From the IMG/VR virus record IMGVR_UViG_3300003690_000425, positions 1 through 23,082 of that record: 23,082 nt of DNA; one strand, written 5' to 3'. The position numbers and the translations under genes are program-made. Each line of letters begins with the position of its first letter. Position 1 is the stretch's first letter. Below are positions 526 through 23,082 of the stretch, piece by piece. Source of the DNA: a virus. The notes under the pieces were generated by a model. The model did no database searches and had not been told where the DNA came from. It saw only the letters and a program-made list of their open reading frames with translations.

Positions 526-1083
526 ATGATATTAGGATTAGACGTAAGCACCTCTATTACAGGTGTTTCTATTGTAGATAAATATGGTGATTTGATATAT
601 TGCCAAGCGTGGAGAACTGACAAAAAAGGCTTGTCTTTTTACAAGAAACTTGATATTATTAAGGAGAATGTATTATTTATGAGGGCACAATATCCAATTG
701 AAATGGTTTATGTTGAAGAGCCGTTGGGAATGTTTGCATCTGGCAGAAGTTCAGCACAAATTATTTCTAAGATTCAAAGATTTAATGGTGCAACATGTTG
801 GATTTTAAATCAAGCCTTTAAATTAGAACCACAATATATTAATACTTTTACAGCAAGGAAAAAATGTGGGATATCAGTTAAAAGAGGGCAGAACTCCAAA
901 GAAATAGTTTTGAAAAATATTCTAGAAAGTCATGAAAACTTTAAGGCCGCATATACCAAAAAAGGAAATCCAGTAAAAGGAACTTATGATCGAGCAGATT
1001 CAGTAGTAATTGCTAAAGCTGGACACTACTTATTTGAAGAAGGGAAACAACATACTTGTTATAACAAGGACTTGAATAAGTGA
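526..1083 (+). CDS. RuvC-like Holliday junction resolvase / RNase H-fold nuclease
   Basis: 185 residues. The N-terminus MILGLDVSTSITGVSIVD is the first strand of the RuvC/RNase H fold, with catalytic Asp6. The second acidic site is in VYVEEP (Glu64/Glu65), and the last is the Asp pair in YDRADSVVIA (Asp155, Asp158). The length fits RuvC. In the family these carboxylates bind two metal ions and cut branched DNA. In a phage the likely role is to resolve recombination or replication branches before packaging, working with the SbcDC-type protein and primase downstream (inference). No good Shine-Dalgarno site precedes the ATG, only an A-run, so translation may be coupled to the gene ending 5 bases upstream. 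Its stop overlaps the next start as GTGA. Confidence 0.85.
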   Translation: MILGLDVSTSITGVSIVDKYGDLIYCQAWRTDKKGLSFYKKLDIIKENVLFMRAQYPIEMVYVEEPLGMFASGRSSAQIISKIQRFNGATCWILNQAFKLEPQYINTFTARKKCGISVKRGQNSKEIVLKNILESHENFKAAYTKKGNPVKGTYDRADSVVIAKAGHYLFEEGKQHTCYNKDLNK

Positions 1084-1724: not shown

Positions 1725-2657
1725 ATGCATTCTGAGAAGCTTAAGATACTTGTAGAACTGCTTGGAGAGTGTTATCGATCAAATGATGAATATCTTTTCT
1801 CTTGTCCGTTTTGTAAACACTATAAGCGCAAATTATCTATAAACATAGCCAAAGGCAAATTTAAATGTTGGATTTGCGATTCATATGGAAAGAGCATATA
1901 TTATTTAATCAAAAGATTTGGAAATTATTCACAGAAACAACAATGGCAAAGCTTTGAAAATTATGTCGAGATCTCAGAGTTCGATAATATTTTTCAAGAA
2001 AAAGTAGAAGAAGAACAAATACAACAAATTAAGCTCCCAAAAGAATACATTTGCCTAGCAAAAAAGAATCTTCCATTAGATTCTAGATTGGCAATGAACT
2101 ATTTAAAAGAACGTAAAATTTTCAAAGAAGATATTTTGAGGTGGAAAATTGGATATTGTACAGATGGGGAATATAGAAATCGCATTATTATTCCCTCATT
2201 TAATAGGGATGGGTATTGCGATTATTTCGTTGCGAGGACGCATACGAAAGACTGGCTAAAATATAAAAACCCACCAGTATCAAAAAATATTGTTTTTAAT
2301 GAATTAATGATTGATTGGGATGAACCAATTACTTTGGTAGAAGGCATCTTTGATGCCATAAATGCAGAGAATTCAATCCCTTTATTAGGCTCTACTTTAA
2401 ACACCCATTCTAAGCTGTTTAGAGCCATTCTGACGCACTCTAAGCGAATATACGTAGCTCTTGACCATGACGCAGAAAAGAAGGCTTTAAACATCATTAA
2501 TACGCTTATTTCGCACGGTGTCGAAGTTTGCAAAATTGATACACCCGATCATGAAGATGTTGGAGAAATGACAAAAGAAGAGTTTAAAGAGAGAAAAGAA
2601 GTAGCAACACTTTTTGATTCAAATGCACTTTTAATTCAAAAAATATCACAAGCTTGA
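1725..2657 (+). CDS. DnaG-type phage DNA primase (CHC2 zinc finger plus Toprim)
   Basis: 310 residues. A zinc finger is formed by Cys27, Cys30, Cys48 and Cys51, with basic and aromatic residues between, as in CHC2 primase domains. The catalytic Toprim signature follows: Glu206 in TLVEGIFDA and the DHD pair Asp247/Asp249 in YVALDHDAEKKA. No helicase domain follows, so this is a stand-alone primase of short phage length that would need a separate replicative helicase, which is not in this window. It makes RNA primers at the fork in the cytoplasm. The ATG has no Shine-Dalgarno site and sits at the predicted start point of the promoter just upstream, so the message may be leaderless. Only 36 bases separate it from the next gene, and a second promoter lies there, beginning 2 bases after the stop. 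Confidence 0.88.
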   Translation: MHSEKLKILVELLGECYRSNDEYLFSCPFCKHYKRKLSINIAKGKFKCWICDSYGKSIYYLIKRFGNYSQKQQWQSFENYVEISEFDNIFQEKVEEEQIQQIKLPKEYICLAKKNLPLDSRLAMNYLKERKIFKEDILRWKIGYCTDGEYRNRIIIPSFNRDGYCDYFVARTHTKDWLKYKNPPVSKNIVFNELMIDWDEPITLVEGIFDAINAENSIPLLGSTLNTHSKLFRAILTHSKRIYVALDHDAEKKALNIINTLISHGVEVCKIDTPDHEDVGEMTKEEFKERKEVATLFDSNALLIQKISQA

Positions 2658-3032: not shown

Positions 3033-6000
3033 ATGAAATTTGCCCACATAGCCGACACGCACATCAAAAATCTTAAATATCACTATGAGTATCGAATTGT
3101 TTTCGAAAAACTTTATGAAAAATTAAGAAAAGAAAAAGTAGATTGCATTGTGCATTGCGGAGATATTGCGCATACAAAAACTCAATTATCTCCAGAATTT
3201 GTAGAAATGTGTACTGATTTTTTTAAGGGCTTGGCGGACATAGCACCAACATATATAATATTAGGAAATCACGATGGCAATTTAAAAAATTCAAGTCGAC
3301 AAGATGCTTTAACTCCAATTGCTAAAGCATTAAATCATCCATCACTTTTTTTACTAAAAAATTCTGGGGAGGTACAACTAAATGATAGATTTTCTCTCAA
3401 CGTTCTTTCTGTGTTTGATCGCGATAATTGGATTTCTCCTAGCGACTCATCCCGTATTAACATTGCTCTTTACCATGGGTCTGTTTCAAATTGTGAAACA
3501 GATTTAGGGTGGGTAATGGAACATGGCGAAGATGATATATCAATTTTTGAAGGACACGACTTCGCTTTTCTTGGAGATATCCACAAAACAAACCAAGTTT
3601 TAGACACTGAAGGTCGCGTAAGATATGCTGGCTCAACCATTCAGCAAAATCATGGCGAGACCAATGACAAAGGTTTTTTAATTTGGGACATCAAAGATAA
3701 ATTTTCTTTCACCAGCAAGCACATTGAGCTTAAAAATCCCAAACCATTCATCACCATTGAATTAACACCAAAAGGAAGATTGCCAAATAAATTTGAAGCA
3801 CCATGCGGTGCTAGATTAAGATTGGTTTCAAACAATAATCTTCCTTTAAGTTCGATGAAGAAAGCGGTTGAAGTTGCCAAGCATCGCTTTAAGCCAGAAT
3901 CAATTACGTTTTTAAATCGCGCTGCGGGACAAAGAGGAAATATTGATGAACTAGCTGAAGGCTTAGCAAATGATAATTTAAGAGATGTGGCTGTTCAAAA
4001 AGAATTAATCGAAGAATATCTGAAAGATTTTCAACCAGACGATGAACTTTTGCAAAGAGTTTTAAAATTAAATTCAAAATACAACGCAACGGTAGAGGAA
4101 GATGAAGAAGTTGATCGCAATATTAATTGGAAATTAGAATCTATCGAGTGGGACAATTTATTTAACTATGGAGAAGAAAATAAAATTGATTTTAGTAAAC
4201 TTTCTGGAATCGTAGGAGTCTTTGGAAAGAATTTCTCAGGAAAATCGAGTATTATTGATAGCGTACTTTATACTCTTTTTAACTCTACTAGCAAAAATGA
4301 AAGAAAAAACCTTAATATTATTAATCAAAACAAAAACAAGGGTGCCGGTAATTTAAAAATTTCAATTGGCAATAAAAAATATTTCATTGAGAGAGTCACT
4401 GAGAAATATATTAAAAAATTAAAAGGCGAAGAAACCTTAGAAGCAAAAACAGATTTAAATTTTGAATGTTATGATGAAGCCACAGAAGAAAGAACTAGTT
4501 TAAATGGTTTAACGCGGACAGAGACAGATAGAAACATACGAAAGCATTTTGGAACTCTCGAAGATTTTCTTTTAACATCAATGTCTTCTCAGCTTGGAGC
4601 CTTGCAATTTATCAGCGAAGGCTCAACAAGGCGAAAAGAAATTCTTGCCAAGTTTCTTGATCTTGAAATGTTTGAAAAGAAATTTAAAATGGCCAAAGAA
4701 GATGCGACTGACTTAAGAGGAGCTTTAAAAAGATTGGAAGGAAAAGAGTTTGAAGAAAGCATCTTTGAGGCTGAGAAAGAATTAATATTTAATGAAAAAG
4801 AAACAAAAGAACAAACGAGAAAATGCCAAAAGCTTAGAGTAACATTGGCTAATTCCATATCAGAATTAAATGATTTAAATAAAGAGATTGAACTAATTCC
4901 TACAGAAATCATTAATATTAATAATGTTTCACGCGCGACGAGCACTAAAGAAAAAGAAATTGCAAATGTAATTGTAAGCAATATTGAACTAAGCGAAGAG
5001 TTGTTTGAGAACAGAGAGCTTCTAGCAAAAATTATTAATTTTATTTCTGAGTTTGATGTTGACGAGCTACAAGAAAAGAAAGAAATACTGGCAGAAAAGC
5101 AAAGAAATCTTAATCAATTAGCCAATGATATTAGAGGCGAAGAGATAAGGCTCCAAAATCAGAATAAAAAAGCACAATTACTCAAAGAAGTTCCTTGTGG
5201 CTCTGAATTCTCACATTGTAAATTTATAAAAGATGCTTATGCCGCTGTAGATAAGCTTTCAATAACAAAAAGAACATGTGAAAAACTAACAGAAGAAAAG
5301 AAAACAATTTCCAGAGAGATTATAGAGTTAAATCCTGAAAAGATCACAGAGCATATGCAAAAATATAATCAATTGCTCAACAAACAGACAAATTTAGAAT
5401 CAACTATTAAAAACAAAAAGCTTATGATAGAGAAAAATGATATTACTTATAAATCCCTGGAGAAAGAAATTGAAGATTTACGCGAGAAGAGTGATGAATA
5501 CTATAAAAACAAAGAGATCATTGAAAATAAAGAGAATTTAGTTCGAGAATCACAAACAATCGAAGAAAATATTAAAAACGAACAAGAAATTCTTCAAGAG
5601 TGTGAAAATCAAAAGCTTGAACTCTATAAAGAACACGGCTCTTTAGAACAAAAGTTAAGTTCTCTTCGAGAACAAAAAGAAGAATTAGCAAATCTTCGAG
5701 AAGACTACGCAGCATACGATCTTTTTACGCGCTGCATGCATTCTAGCGGGATATCTTATGATATTATTAAGAAAAAGCTCCCAGTAATCAACAATGAAGT
5801 TGCTAAAGTCTTAGCAAATATTGTTAATTTTGAGGTTTTCTTTGAAGATGACGGAAAACATTTAAAAATCTTTATTAAACACCCAAGCCATGAGCCGAGA
5901 CCAATAGAAATGGGCTCCGGAGCAGAAAAAACAATTGCCGCAATGGCAATTCGTTTGGCATTGTTATCAGTTTCAAGTCTACCAAAATCTGATATTTTTA

Positions 6001-6188
6001 TTCTTGACGAACCAGGAACAGCTTTGGACGCTGACAATATGGATGGATTTATTACTATCTTAGAATTGATTAAAAACTATTTTAAGATTGTTTTGCTTAT
6101 TTCACACTTAGATTCTCTTAAAGATTGCGTGGATGTACAAATAACGATTGATAAAAAGGATGGTTTTGCACATGTAATGGATTTTTAA
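3033..6188 (+). CDS. SbcD-SbcC (Mre11-Rad50 / gp47-gp46 type) single-chain recombination nuclease-ATPase
   Basis: 1051 residues. Residues 1 to about 340 are an SbcD/Mre11-like metallophosphoesterase: DTH at 8-10, GD at 43-44, GNHD at 78-81, His148 and GDIH at 181-184. From about 370 an SbcC/Rad50-like half begins: Walker A GKNFSGKS at 398-405, a Lys/Glu-rich coiled coil from about 540 to 900, signature MGSGAEK at 960-966, Walker B FILDEP with Asp992/Glu993, and H-loop His1025. Halfway along the coil is a Cys pair, Cys722 and Cys729, where Rad50 has its zinc hook; here the spacing is C-x6-C, not CxxC. In T4 the two subunits are separate proteins. The complex resects DNA ends for recombination-dependent replication. 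No stop, start or intergenic gap separates the halves. The ATG has no strong Shine-Dalgarno site. Confidence 0.93.
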   Translation: MKFAHIADTHIKNLKYHYEYRIVFEKLYEKLRKEKVDCIVHCGDIAHTKTQLSPEFVEMCTDFFKGLADIAPTYIILGNHDGNLKNSSRQDALTPIAKALNHPSLFLLKNSGEVQLNDRFSLNVLSVFDRDNWISPSDSSRINIALYHGSVSNCETDLGWVMEHGEDDISIFEGHDFAFLGDIHKTNQVLDTEGRVRYAGSTIQQNHGETNDKGFLIWDIKDKFSFTSKHIELKNPKPFITIELTPKGRLPNKFEAPCGARLRLVSNNNLPLSSMKKAVEVAKHRFKPESITFLNRAAGQRGNIDELAEGLANDNLRDVAVQKELIEEYLKDFQPDDELLQRVLKLNSKYNATVEEDEEVDRNINWKLESIEWDNLFNYGEENKIDFSKLSGIVGVFGKNFSGKSSIIDSVLYTLFNSTSKNERKNLNIINQNKNKGAGNLKISIGNKKYFIERVTEKYIKKLKGEETLEAKTDLNFECYDEATEERTSLNGLTRTETDRNIRKHFGTLEDFLLTSMSSQLGALQFISEGSTRRKEILAKFLDLEMFEKKFKMAKEDATDLRGALKRLEGKEFEESIFEAEKELIFNEKETKEQTRKCQKLRVTLANSISELNDLNKEIELIPTEIININNVSRATSTKEKEIANVIVSNIELSEELFENRELLAKIINFISEFDVDELQEKKEILAEKQRNLNQLANDIRGEEIRLQNQNKKAQLLKEVPCGSEFSHCKFIKDAYAAVDKLSITKRTCEKLTEEKKTISREIIELNPEKITEHMQKYNQLLNKQTNLESTIKNKKLMIEKNDITYKSLEKEIEDLREKSDEYYKNKEIIENKENLVRESQTIEENIKNEQEILQECENQKLELYKEHGSLEQKLSSLREQKEELANLREDYAAYDLFTRCMHSSGISYDIIKKKLPVINNEVAKVLANIVNFEVFFEDDGKHLKIFIKHPSHEPRPIEMGSGAEKTIAAMAIRLALLSVSSLPKSDIFILDEPGTALDADNMDGFITILELIKNYFKIVLLISHLDSLKDCVDVQITIDKKDGFAHVMDF

Positions 6189-18834: not shown

Positions 18835-20484
18835 ATGACTGCAGGGTACATGTCCAATGATTCGGCTCTTTATGTAACGGGCTCCTGTGCATTTTCATCG
18901 AGCCTTTATGTTAGTTGGGGCGCTTCAACCGGTTCAGCAACTACTGTTGGGATTAGACAAAATGATATTGGTACATTAGAATTTAAAGACAACGCCACTG
19001 GAAGCTGGACCGAGTTTGGGAATTCTCGTGATCTTACGTCTGTCCGTAATGCGCACTTGGTGTTAACCGACGACGATGTGGCACATGGAATAACAAATGT
19101 GGCTCAGACCAATGCTTATGGTGATTTTGGCCCGATTCATTCAACTCGCGGCGGCCTACTGATCAACGGGATGTCAGATCAGGAAAGTGCAGCTGCTCGT
19201 TCACTAGCTTTGAGAGGCATTTCTAACGATACCCACACAGATACGGTTGCAACCGTTGAAATCATTGGAGCAAAAAGAAGTGGAACAACAGTTCAAGCCT
19301 TAGCTTCTGCTGAAACTGTTTTGGAGGTTGCAAATCACACTACCGCATTAGTGACGGTACTTGGCGACGGCGCCGTCGGAATCGGAGTGGTAGACCCAGA
19401 TTCGCCGCTTGAGATTTTAGATACAAGCACTCAACAAAAATGGTCATACGATTCTGATAGTTTTGCGACAATGACCGTTGCAGCTAGTAGCAATACAACT
19501 ATTGCAACTGGAGAATCAGGCAACTTGACTCTTGATTCTGCTGGAGATATTACCTTCGATGCCGATGGCGCCGATGTTTCTTTAAAAGACGCAGGCACTC
19601 AATTCTTAAAATTTACAAATAATAGTGGCGACTGTGAGATTTACAATGGTGTTGCAGATACAGACATAATATTTAAAGATCTTGGTGGTAACACGATTGT
19701 AACAATTGATGGCGGTGACGAAGCGGTTGTAGTTGCTGACGACAAAAAGCTTTATTTTGGTACTGGCAAAGATGCCTCTATAGAATACGATGAAGATGGA
19801 ACTAATAGGCTTATCATTTCTGGCTCAGCACAGGGCGTAGAAGTTACTGGCAAAATGTTCCTCAGTGGCAATACGCCCGGGCAAGCGGCTTTATATATTA
19901 GCGGCAGCGGCCCATATGGAACTAGCGGACAAGCCACGGTTATAATTGATGCAGATAAAGATGCTTCAATCATTGTGGGCGAAGCTTTCATGGGCAACGG
20001 TGGAAGTTCAGGATTAGCATATTTTGGGCACAAAGATTCAATTGGCATTACCAATGCAGCTGTTATACAAAAAGCCAATGGTTCAACTTATTTAAACGCA
20101 AAAAGCGGCCAAAAGTTGCAACTCACCATTAATGGTGGTACTAGACTGATGATAGACTCTGCTGGAAATGTTGGAATTGGCGCTGGTTATGATCCCACTT
20201 ATCTGCTAGACGTTTCTGGATCTACAAGATTCGGCATGGATCATGCCGATACACATCACTTTTCCGGAAGCTTAGATGTTTCAGGGAGCATTCTCCCATC
20301 CAGCGACAATGTACACAATTTAGGTTCATCTGGCAAACGCTGGGCGAATTTATACACAGCCGACTTACATCTTAAAAATAACAAAGGAGATTGGACGATT
20401 CTTGAGGAAGAAGACTATTTATGTGTAGTGAACAATAAGACGAATAAGAGATATAAAATGATGTTAGAGGAAATTGAAGATTAA
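18835..20484 (+). CDS. Fibre-like structural protein with repeated beta modules
   Basis: 549 residues. ATG follows AAGGAAGG. The chain is Ser/Thr/Gly/Asp-rich and beta-predicted. It contains NLTLDSAGDITFDADGADVS, then the shared block from about 19606 to 19843 (KFTNNSGDCEIYNG, IIFKDLGGNTI, DDKKLYFGTGKDASIEYDED, RLIISGSAQG). The C-terminal part has LGSSGKRWANLYTADLHLKN followed by GDWTILEEEDYL, a typical end of phage fibre proteins often found before or in place of an endosialidase-type chaperone domain. The shared block is nearly the same as one in the gene at 20760. A head fibre or tail fibre is likely; the position within the head operon favours the former. One base overlaps the next gene. 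Confidence 0.75.
   Translation: MTAGYMSNDSALYVTGSCAFSSSLYVSWGASTGSATTVGIRQNDIGTLEFKDNATGSWTEFGNSRDLTSVRNAHLVLTDDDVAHGITNVAQTNAYGDFGPIHSTRGGLLINGMSDQESAAARSLALRGISNDTHTDTVATVEIIGAKRSGTTVQALASAETVLEVANHTTALVTVLGDGAVGIGVVDPDSPLEILDTSTQQKWSYDSDSFATMTVAASSNTTIATGESGNLTLDSAGDITFDADGADVSLKDAGTQFLKFTNNSGDCEIYNGVADTDIIFKDLGGNTIVTIDGGDEAVVVADDKKLYFGTGKDASIEYDEDGTNRLIISGSAQGVEVTGKMFLSGNTPGQAALYISGSGPYGTSGQATVIIDADKDASIIVGEAFMGNGGSSGLAYFGHKDSIGITNAAVIQKANGSTYLNAKSGQKLQLTINGGTRLMIDSAGNVGIGAGYDPTYLLDVSGSTRFGMDHADTHHFSGSLDVSGSILPSSDNVHNLGSSGKRWANLYTADLHLKNNKGDWTILEEEDYLCVVNNKTNKRYKMMLEEIED
19606..19843 (+). repeat. Shared fibre block, copy in the 18835 gene
   Basis: The block LKFTN.SGDC..YNG, DIIFK.LG, TIDGG, DDKKLYFG, EYDEDGTNRLIISGS appears here and again from 21768 to about 22008 with many identical bases. 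Its second half is the DDK..YFG module also found near 8207. Confidence 0.8.
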
Positions 20485-20732
20485 TGCCTGTTTTTACCAC
20501 TGCAATAACCGGCTCGGGCGAAAGTGGAGTGGTAGCACTTAGTGGCTCAATAGAGACTGAAGGTTTTATTTCGAGCCTGGGCGTGGGAAACGCTACAACT
20601 ATAGGCGTAGCAGTCGCAGTCCCAGCAAATTATAATTCCATTCTCTATGGGCCAATAACAATAGGCACCGCTGGCACATTAACAATTAATAGTGATTCTG
20701 CCGTTAAAATTATAGATATTGAGAATGTCTAG
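20484..20732 (+). CDS. Small fibre/decoration-like beta protein
   Basis: 82 residues. ATG shares a base with the upstream stop (TAATG). The sequence is beta-rich and Gly/Ser/Thr-rich, with ALSGSIETEGFISSLGVGNA and YNSILYGPITIGTAGTLTIN, ending VKIIDIENV. The LYGPITIG...LTI pattern resembles short repeats at fibre ends and in small decoration proteins of marine phages (recalled). It may be a trimeric tip or a partner of the fibre upstream. No signal peptide, Cys or enzyme motif is present. Confidence 0.65.
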   Translation: MPVFTTAITGSGESGVVALSGSIETEGFISSLGVGNATTIGVAVAVPANYNSILYGPITIGTAGTLTINSDSAVKIIDIENV

Positions 20733-20759
20733 GTATTCTCCTTAAAGAGGAATAAGAAA

Positions 20760-23082
20760 TTGAGCAAGCTATATGTAAACACAATCTATCCACAATCAGG
20801 AAATGATGTTTTTGTTTCTGGAAACTTAGATGTTTCTGGCACATTAAAGGCATATCGTTTTCAAACTAATATTGAAGAAAAAACTGTATATTTAGGTACA
20901 AATAACTTCGGTAATAGTAACGACGATAGACATCACTTTACTGGCAGTGTGTATATTACTGGGTCTACACTTGAATTGCGCGCCGGAGAAGCTACTGCTG
21001 CCACCATAAGTCTCATAGCAGACCAGGGCGATGATGTCGCAGATACAACTACGATCTCCGTCGCTGACGGCGGCACTTTAACTGTTGATTGCGCTTTAGA
21101 CATCACTCTCGATGCTGATGGTGGCGAAGTCTATTTTAAAGATGCTGGAGTACAGCAAGGTGTCCTCAAAATGGACACTTCAAATAAATTTATATTGTCT
21201 TCAAGTGTATCAACAAACGACCTTTATTTAATGTCTGGTAGAGACATTGTTCTCGATGCCGATGGTGCTGATATAGTGTTTGCCGATGGTGGAGCTACAA
21301 AAGCAACTTTTACAATGGGTTCGTCTTTAGAAATTGATGTTCCATCTGGTGATTTGACTCTTGATGTTAATGGCGATATTATTCTCGATGCTGATGGCGG
21401 CGAAGTTTTCTTTAAAGATGCTGGAGTACAACAAGGCGTCCTCAAGATGGACACTTCAAATAAATTTGTATTGTCTTCAAGCATTCCTGTTAATGATTTT
21501 TATCTGATGTCTGGACGAAATATGGTTCTTGATACCGGCGATTTAACTTGCGATGCCGGAGGCGATATCAATCTCGACGCAGACGGTGGAGAAATTTATT
21601 TTAAAGATGCTGGAGTTCAACAGGGCGTCCTTAAAATGGACACTGCAAACAAATTCATATTGTCTTCAAGCGTTTCCGTTAATGATGTTTATGTAATGTC
21701 CGGACGAGATATTGTTTTAGATGCCTCCGCCGCTGATATTTCCTTGCAAGATGACGCTACACAGTACTTAAAATTTACAAATAGTAGCGGTGATTGCATA
21801 GTTTATAATGGTGCTGCAGATAAAGATATAATATTTAAAGAACTTGGTAGTGGTAACGTGATTGCAACAATTGATGGCGGCGAAGAAGCGATTATAGTTG
21901 CTGATGACAAAAAGATTTATTTTGGCGATAACAAAGAGTCTTCCATGGAATACGATGAAGATGGAACTAATAGACTTATTATTTCTGGTTCTGCTGCTGG
22001 CATTGATGTTACCGGTAGCACATACTTTAAAAATGATGTAATAATTGTAGGCAATCTTTACGGTGGATCCCCATTAGAAATCTCTGGATCCGTATCGCTT
22101 GGCACTGATTGCGTTGATTCTATTTATTTGTCCGGCTCTTTAACCGCAAGCTGCGATACAGTAATTCTTGATGATAAAAAGATTTATTTTGGCACTCAAA
22201 AAGATGCTTATCTTGAATATGATGAGGCTGGAACCGATCGACTTATACTTTCTGGCGCTAAGGGAGGTCTCAATATTAGTGGCAGCGCCATATACATAGG
22301 AACTTCAAGGAAAATGTATTTTGGCGATGGTGATTCTGCTTATATTTTCTATGGTAACCCGGGCGGCGGCAATGAATTTGCCATTAATTTAGGCGCCCAG
22401 GGCGGCGGAATTCAAATGCCAGATAACGATGGCGCCGCGTTTGAGATTAGAGAAGCTGGCAATACCTACATGAGATTTAATACTGGCGATAGCTATGCGG
22501 ATGTAAGGTGTCCCAAGCCGTTTGGAGTAATGGACGATGTAACATTAAATTTTGGTACACCAAGCGCTGCTGGCGTACCCGGCACAATGGAATATGATGC
22601 AAATGGGACAAGCCAAGTTGTTCTTTCTCCGCCCGCAGCTGGCTTCTCTATTGGCTCAGGCCTTCATAGAATCGCGGTAGATCTTTCTATCACTGGGTCA
22701 CACGGTGGAGATAATACTGTTGTTAATCAATTGTATGGCGTTAAAATTCCTAATGATGCATTCATTACAAGGGTTGTTGCCATCACAAAGACTCTTTCTA
22801 ATTTAAATGCAGCAATATTCAATATTCAATTATCTGCTACAAGTGGAACAGCCGAAGACACCGCAATATCATCAGGAACAGAGATTCTTGGTGCAGGAGC
22901 ATCTGGTACCATTGATTCAAACGGTGAAAATGCTGCAGATATCATAATGTCCAATGGAGGAAATAGCGGAATTGCGAATAGAGTTTGGATGAATACATCA
23001 GGCTCAGCGGGCTTCGTCCATAAAGCGACAGCAGATAATTTTGTCTATGTTTGTAATGCTGGTACTGCCAACGGCACATCTG
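20760..23082 (+). CDS. Large repeat-built fibre-like protein, 3' end outside window
   Basis: At least 774 residues, open to the right edge. TTG 20760 follows AGAGGA by 8 bases; the first in-frame ATG is near 21174 and would cut off conserved-looking sequence. Three copies of a 49-codon unit (21108, 21384, 21573) read LDADGGE(V/I)(Y/F)FKDAGVQQG, then LKMDT, LSSS and MSGR. Next comes the block shared with the 18835 gene (from 21768) and two full DDK..YFG..EYDE modules (21903, 22170), then decayed versions near 22317 and 22548. From about 22680 a different, non-repeat domain starts (HRIAVDLSITGSHGGDNTVV). Repeats suggest a fibrous trimer growing by module duplication. Confidence 0.75.
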   Translation, partial: MSKLYVNTIYPQSGNDVFVSGNLDVSGTLKAYRFQTNIEEKTVYLGTNNFGNSNDDRHHFTGSVYITGSTLELRAGEATAATISLIADQGDDVADTTTISVADGGTLTVDCALDITLDADGGEVYFKDAGVQQGVLKMDTSNKFILSSSVSTNDLYLMSGRDIVLDADGADIVFADGGATKATFTMGSSLEIDVPSGDLTLDVNGDIILDADGGEVFFKDAGVQQGVLKMDTSNKFVLSSSIPVNDFYLMSGRNMVLDTGDLTCDAGGDINLDADGGEIYFKDAGVQQGVLKMDTANKFILSSSVSVNDVYVMSGRDIVLDASAADISLQDDATQYLKFTNSSGDCIVYNGAADKDIIFKELGSGNVIATIDGGEEAIIVADDKKIYFGDNKESSMEYDEDGTNRLIISGSAAGIDVTGSTYFKNDVIIVGNLYGGSPLEISGSVSLGTDCVDSIYLSGSLTASCDTVILDDKKIYFGTQKDAYLEYDEAGTDRLILSGAKGGLNISGSAIYIGTSRKMYFGDGDSAYIFYGNPGGGNEFAINLGAQGGGIQMPDNDGAAFEIREAGNTYMRFNTGDSYADVRCPKPFGVMDDVTLNFGTPSAAGVPGTMEYDANGTSQVVLSPPAAGFSIGSGLHRIAVDLSITGSHGGDNTVVNQLYGVKIPNDAFITRVVAITKTLSNLNAAIFNIQLSATSGTAEDTAISSGTEILGAGASGTIDSNGENAADIIMSNGGNSGIANRVWMNTSGSAGFVHKATADNFVYVCNAGTANGTS
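21108..21719 (+). repeat. Three 147-base coding repeats in the large fibre gene
   Basis: Copies lie at 21108-21254, 21384-21530 and 21573-21719, each exactly 49 codons and clearly alike in DNA. The start-to-start distances are 276 and 189 bases, so the first spacer has 87 more bases (29 codons) than the second. They encode KDAGVQQG..LKMDT..NKF.LSSS segments. Confidence 0.85.
21768..22275 (+). repeat. Shared fibre block and DDK modules in the 20760 gene
   Basis: The segment 21768 to about 22008 matches the block at 19606-19843, including aligned DDKKIYFG and EYDEDGTNRLIISGS. A further DDKKIYFGTQKDAYLEYDEA module follows at 22170-22275. Confidence 0.8.

Follow-up and report, generated by a model that had tools for sequence, protein, structure and literature searches.

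The window analysed here, a stretch of 23,082 nt from IMG/VR virus record IMGVR_UViG_3300003690_000425, raises the question of whether a phage encodes the canonical SbcD/SbcC (Mre11/Rad50) pair as a genuine single chain and, if so, how the two halves are joined and what the product would do. Positions 3033-6188 (plus strand) were shown to constitute a single ORF of 1051 aa, extending from ATG to stop without an internal stop codon, as the initial annotation had proposed. Within this frame, an Mre11/SbcD-type nuclease at the N-terminus is followed by a Rad50/SbcC-type ATPase on the same chain, which supports the earlier claim of one polypeptide with nuclease-to-ATPase order and 1:1 stoichiometry by construction. 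Pfam comparison returned Metallophos (PF00149; 2.7e-13, residues 1-160) and AAA_23 (3.3e-8, residues 372-602), and comparison with the PHROGs returned phrog_77 (SbcC-like; 3.3e-48).

All previously quoted motifs were found at the positions given for them. The Rad50/SbcC set comprises Walker A (GKNFSGKS, 398-405), the signature (EMGSGAEK, 959-966), Walker B (DE, 992-993), the His switch (H1025) and a coiled coil with a Cys hook. The Mre11 set (DxH, GD, GNHD, H and GHxH), which had been described as complete, was so for four motifs (DTH 8-10, GD 43-44, GNHD 78-81 and H148), which are present and invariant in the window family; motif V reads GDxH in this family (GDIH 181-184 in the window), while the unfused phage SbcDs in the sample carry GHxH. 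Feature coordinates are listed in Table 1.

Table 1. Features of the fused gene and its upstream neighbours (positions in the window)
Feature	Position	Strand	Basis
RuvC-like Holliday junction resolvase	526..1083	+	PHROG 159, 2.1e-8
DnaG-like primase, upstream neighbour	1725..2657	+	PHROG 47, 1.8e-42
Fused SbcD-SbcC (Mre11-Rad50) gene, 1051 aa	3033..6188	+	ORF, Pfam, PHROG, motifs
Mre11/SbcD-type nuclease domain, residues 1-235	3033..3737	+	PF00149; hhalign to T4 gp47 profile
GDIH, residues 181-184; Asp182 at first-His place of canonical GHxH	3573..3584	+	Alignments
GSTIQQN motif, residues 200-206; hairpin directly before is the split site in relatives	3630..3650	+	
Capping region, residues 236-295, boundary approximate	3738..3917	+	AlphaFold2 secondary structure; profile alignment
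Helix-loop-helix, residues 319-356, place of the Rad50-binding element of Mre11	3987..4100	+	AlphaFold2 helices
Inter-domain linker, residues 357-364	4101..4124	+	AlphaFold2 coil; spacing in 80 relatives
Rad50/SbcC N-lobe, residues 365-544; Walker A 4224-4247	4125..4664	+	Pfam AAA_23, AlphaFold2
Ascending coiled coil, residues 545-718	4665..5186	+	AlphaFold2
Putative zinc hook CGSEFSHC, residues 722-729, C-X6-C	5196..5219	+	Motif, alignment
Descending coiled coil, residues 733-902	5229..5738	+	AlphaFold2
Rad50/SbcC C-lobe, residues 907-1051; signature 5907-5930, Walker B 5997-6011, His1025	5751..6188	+	Motifs, AlphaFold2

A scan of viral contigs yielded 385 relatives, the best 80 of which were fetched (L001-L080). 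A continuous fused frame of ~1020-1090 codons was present in all 80, and further scans revealed fused forms in nearly all of the more distant relatives (~170 contigs overall), the identity of related frames to the window protein ranging from 22 to 75%. In the 80-row alignment, residues D8, H10, D44, N79, H80, H148, D182, H184, K404, S962, G963, D992 and E993 are invariant, and agreement with the window amounts to 62-68% in the nuclease, cap and ATPase lobes versus 31-32% in the coiled coils. Cultured phages of Microcystis, Tenacibaculum, Chryseobacterium and Sphingomonas also carry the fused gene, under generic GenBank labels (metallo-phosphoesterase, DNA repair, AAA domain protein).

The novelty implied by the initial annotation did not hold, as these known phages and a 2011 study already display such fusions. 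Mre11/Rad50 fusions were described in Mimivirus, Bacillus phage 0305phi8-36, plasmids, bacteria and eukaryotes, together with plentiful aquatic homologues, ascribed to viruses including phages, on scaffolds with primase genes; overall, these fusions are not monophyletic (Yoshida, Claverie and Ogata 2011; PMC3175470). The kind of fusion is thus known since 2011, and the window gene adds one more example. It resembles the published fusions in its N-terminal Mre11 and C-terminal Rad50 parts, helix-loop-helix and short linker, Mimivirus R555 in its GDxxH/GDxH motifs, and the aquatic homologues in its proximity to a phage primase. It is smaller than R555, which is known here from its description (1051 versus 1351 aa), and, unlike in the 2011 aquatic data, whose short reads rarely permitted this, the fusion can be followed end to end on long phage contigs.

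The phage itself was placed by means of its terminase. A T4-type terminase, portal and prohead protease are encoded downstream of the fused gene, and among named terminases, those of Microcystis phage Mel-JY01, Flavobacterium phages vB_FspM_immuto and huge phage LR756508 come nearest (42-44% identity), followed by cyanophage terminases (34%). Based on these identities, the window phage is placed within the T4 superfamily, apart from both T4 and the marine cyanomyoviruses. Two long ORFs at 18835-23081, with repeated ISGS/VTGS/DDKKIYFG-type motifs and without a PHROG match, are probably tail-fibre-like structural proteins. Among relatives with enough upstream sequence, 106 of 120 carry a primase ahead of the fused gene and on its strand, and 82/105 carry a RuvC-like gene.

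It is very probable, given the conserved active sites, the sole copy in large relatives (see below) and the replication/recombination neighbours, that the gene encodes, in a phage of the T4 superfamily, a virus-type single-chain SbcDC with the function of T4 gp47/gp46 in recombination-dependent replication, a role taken here from the annotation of the T4 record. The window shares with T4 gp47/gp46 its domain content, probable role and nearby T4-type packaging and head genes, whereas the T4 proteins are encoded by separate genes with small ORFs between them and exhibit a GHFH motif, a C-X2-C hook and a shorter gp46. E. coli SbcCD, a homologous complex with the same domain chemistry, differs in its two genes, its longer SbcC and its deep branch in the tree described below.

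The Asp at motif V suggests another reading, namely a specialised enzyme (e.g. one biased towards endonuclease activity or preferring another metal) instead of a simple gp46/47 counterpart. D182, aligned with the first His of the T4 gp47 GHFH motif, is invariant in the 80 fused relatives, at a position where the unfused phage SbcDs retain the canonical metal-ligand His, and cleavage chemistry could differ as a consequence. The same replacement has been reported for Mimivirus R555 (Asp242 for His206), in which His also replaces the third Asp of the GDxxD motif (PMC3175470). By comparison with that published description, both R555-type substitutions, GDxxH and GDxH, occur in the window protein (GDIAH 43-47 and GDIH), and the other metal-ligand positions are all kept. 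However, the fused protein of phage PAU has GHIH, so Asp at motif V is not strictly tied to fusion. Moreover, Asp often serves as a metal ligand in calcineurin-like phosphoesterases, which also counts against specialisation. GDxxH, for its part, is the archaeal/eukaryotic Mre11 form as well. A specialised enzyme is considered rather unlikely.

To describe the joint between nuclease and ATPase, the fused protein was modelled as a monomer with AlphaFold2 (mean pLDDT 84.3, pTM 0.48), using an input alignment that left out two rows from annotated records. The predicted layout is nuclease-cap-helix-loop-helix-head-coil-hook-coil-head, and Foldseek matched the model to both Mre11 chains and Rad50 chains from solved complexes (7zr1, 7yzp, 3qg5, 3tho and 3av0). 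Among viral models, the best matches were DNA repair exonucleases of giant viruses (Tupanvirus, Harvfovirus, Yasminevirus and Catovirus), with Tenacibaculum phages slightly below; these giant-virus and phage homologues are close in length to the window protein. The putative zinc hook is variable even inside one close family, being mostly C-X6-C, C-X2-C in 19 of the 80 rows and C-X7-C in some; the unfused SbcC of a Moorella phage has C-X7-C.

C-terminal to the capping region, two helices (319-333 and 337-356) are predicted, followed by a coil of ~8 residues (357-364) and the first Rad50 strand at residue 365. N347 and W366 are 17-19 residues apart in 80/80 relatives, at identities down to 22%, and this near-fixed spacing argues for a constraint on the length of the joint, as opposed to a loose tether. 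The initial annotation had proposed that a linker near residues 340-370 replaces the normal Mre11-Rad50 interface; this was rejected on the basis of the predicted helix-loop-helix just N-terminal to it, the shortness of the linker and the near-constant spacing. Against a profile of four unfused gp47 proteins from phages, residues 1-347 aligned (hhalign Prob 98.6), the helix-loop-helix segment aligning solely as the end of this full-length match and being non-significant by itself against the gp47 profile (E 0.39). The capping region, retained helix-loop-helix and short linker of the fusion family are consequently present in the prediction, with the helix-loop-helix alone weak by sequence; this element is likewise kept in most other fusions (PMC3175470). 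The order of the fusion fits the canonical complex, because in that of T. maritima the Mre11 C-terminus lies ~28 Å from the Rad50 N-terminus, a gap bridgeable by 9-12 residues (PMC3175470).

The same measurements bear on the possibility that each nuclease docks in trans on the Rad50 part of the partner chain. Such a domain-swapped fused M2R2 complex is possible in principle, and the AlphaFold2 model is that of a monomer, but a coil of ~8 residues with near-constant spacing, close to the length calculated for T. maritima, makes this arrangement improbable.

A further alternative, in which the fused protein is an accessory to a separately encoded SbcC/SbcD pair, would parallel most cellular fusion carriers, which retain the canonical pair (PMC3175470). 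The window belongs to a fragment of 25.7 kb, and the evidence on copy number comes from large relatives: in 11 related contigs (177-204 kb), no SbcC match besides the fused gene is convincing, a marginal second one (2.8e-4) occurring in a single contig, and in 10 of them the Metallophos (SbcD-type) match is unique to the fused gene. With an extra 226-aa phosphoesterase in relative G008 as a further point in its favour, an accessory role is regarded as very improbable. Lastly, although the source is metagenomic, a merger of two neighbouring genes through a missing stop/start is practically excluded by the continuous frame in independent contigs (all of L001-L080) and in distant cultured phages, and by the constant linker spacing of 17-19 residues. 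The fusion is genuine and common among related phages.

Searches for plasmid homologues returned partial weak matches only. Those for cellular copies returned a fused gene on one MAG contig (L086, PBOB01000007.1), binned as Acidiferrobacteraceae, which is probably a phage contig in a MAG bin, since its length and match position agree with those of viral contig L057.

For the single-chain SbcDC with a gp47/gp46-like role, we infer activity, dimer geometry and function during infection as follows. Two fused chains would pair via their nuclease domains and ATP-bound Rad50 heads, rebuilding the M2R2 head, with each nuclease docking through its helix-loop-helix onto the coiled-coil root of the same chain and the short linker bridging the little distance that is left before the first Rad50 strand. 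Hydrolysis of ATP would open the clamp, allowing the nuclease to trim DNA ends; the resulting 3' single strands would serve recombination-dependent replication, and the nuclease may also contribute to host DNA degradation.

The history of the fusion was examined in a tree of 33 rows, covering sampled phages and E. coli, with cellular and giant-virus fusions left out. Fused and split phage forms were separated from T4, Cr30, S-SSM7, AG-345-L05, MTATph1 and E. coli by a branch with support 100/99, so that the fused forms, whose clade status the initial annotation had proposed to check, lie together with secondarily split rows on one side. Nuclease-only and ATPase-only trees displayed the same separation with weaker support (94 and 81, respectively). 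These trees fit a single fusion event within the sampled phages. The Mel-JY01 protein (WWT39521.1) is fused, shares ~31% identity with the window protein over 99% of the length, and is accompanied by a primase just upstream and a related terminase; unlike the window protein, it is annotated only as an AAA domain protein, has a C-X2-C hook and carries Ala for the first Walker A Gly. The fusions of Tenacibaculum pT24/PTm1, Chryseobacterium MA9V-1/2, Sphingomonas PAU and LR756501 have the same order and form the sister side of the fused group. They are longer than the window protein (1200-1330 aa), and the motif I His is Gln in pT24, PAU and MA9V-1 (Tenacibaculum, Sphingomonas and Chryseobacterium phages; L168, L169 and L170: ADFQ, SDIQ and ADVQ).

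In four relatives (L106:3304-6544, L173:2301-5553, L174:2443-5695 and L178:3474-6755), the gene consists of two adjacent or overlapping frames, broken between GDIHK and YPGSxxQQN, within the nuclease domain, so that the pieces measure ~225 and ~860 aa. The second piece is in the +1 frame in L106 and L173, and in the same frame after a stop in L178; the first pieces share a conserved E-x-DL-x-x-YPGA-like tail, which makes sequencing errors less likely. In LR756508, a 484-kb phage (L082:4944-9166), the gene is cut at the same hairpin with a 305-aa ORF in between, which has a weak TnsA-like endonuclease match (PF08722, 5.8e-6). Rfam returned no match in LR756508, L131 or L112, whether to a group I intron or to another known RNA. 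L131 (3977-7171) is fused; its nuclease has 8 residues inserted at the very hairpin that is the split site in other lineages. The two split groups lie apart in the trees, each nested among fused forms. On balance, we lean towards a scenario in which SbcD and SbcC were fused once, long ago, in tailed phages, and no fewer than two lineages have since re-split inside the nuclease domain at the GDIHK/YPGSxxQQN hairpin. Literature searches found none on Mel-JY01 or on a split SbcD nuclease domain, and the Far-T4 paper mentions neither gp46, gp47 nor the fusion.

Long contigs confirm the hint, previously derived from short marine reads, that many T4-superfamily phages use a single-chain Mre11-Rad50. 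As a natural single-chain complex with a near-fixed linker, in which stoichiometry and docking are pre-set, the protein would be useful for structural work. The secondary splits inside the nuclease domain of relatives are the most unusual by-product and one that may surprise specialists. If the re-splitting is true, the relatives concerned would produce two pieces, one of ~225 residues that carries the five metal motifs and one of ~860 residues that carries the nuclease remainder and the ATPase; the subunit boundary would have moved into a folded catalytic domain, and the window gene would represent the unsplit state.
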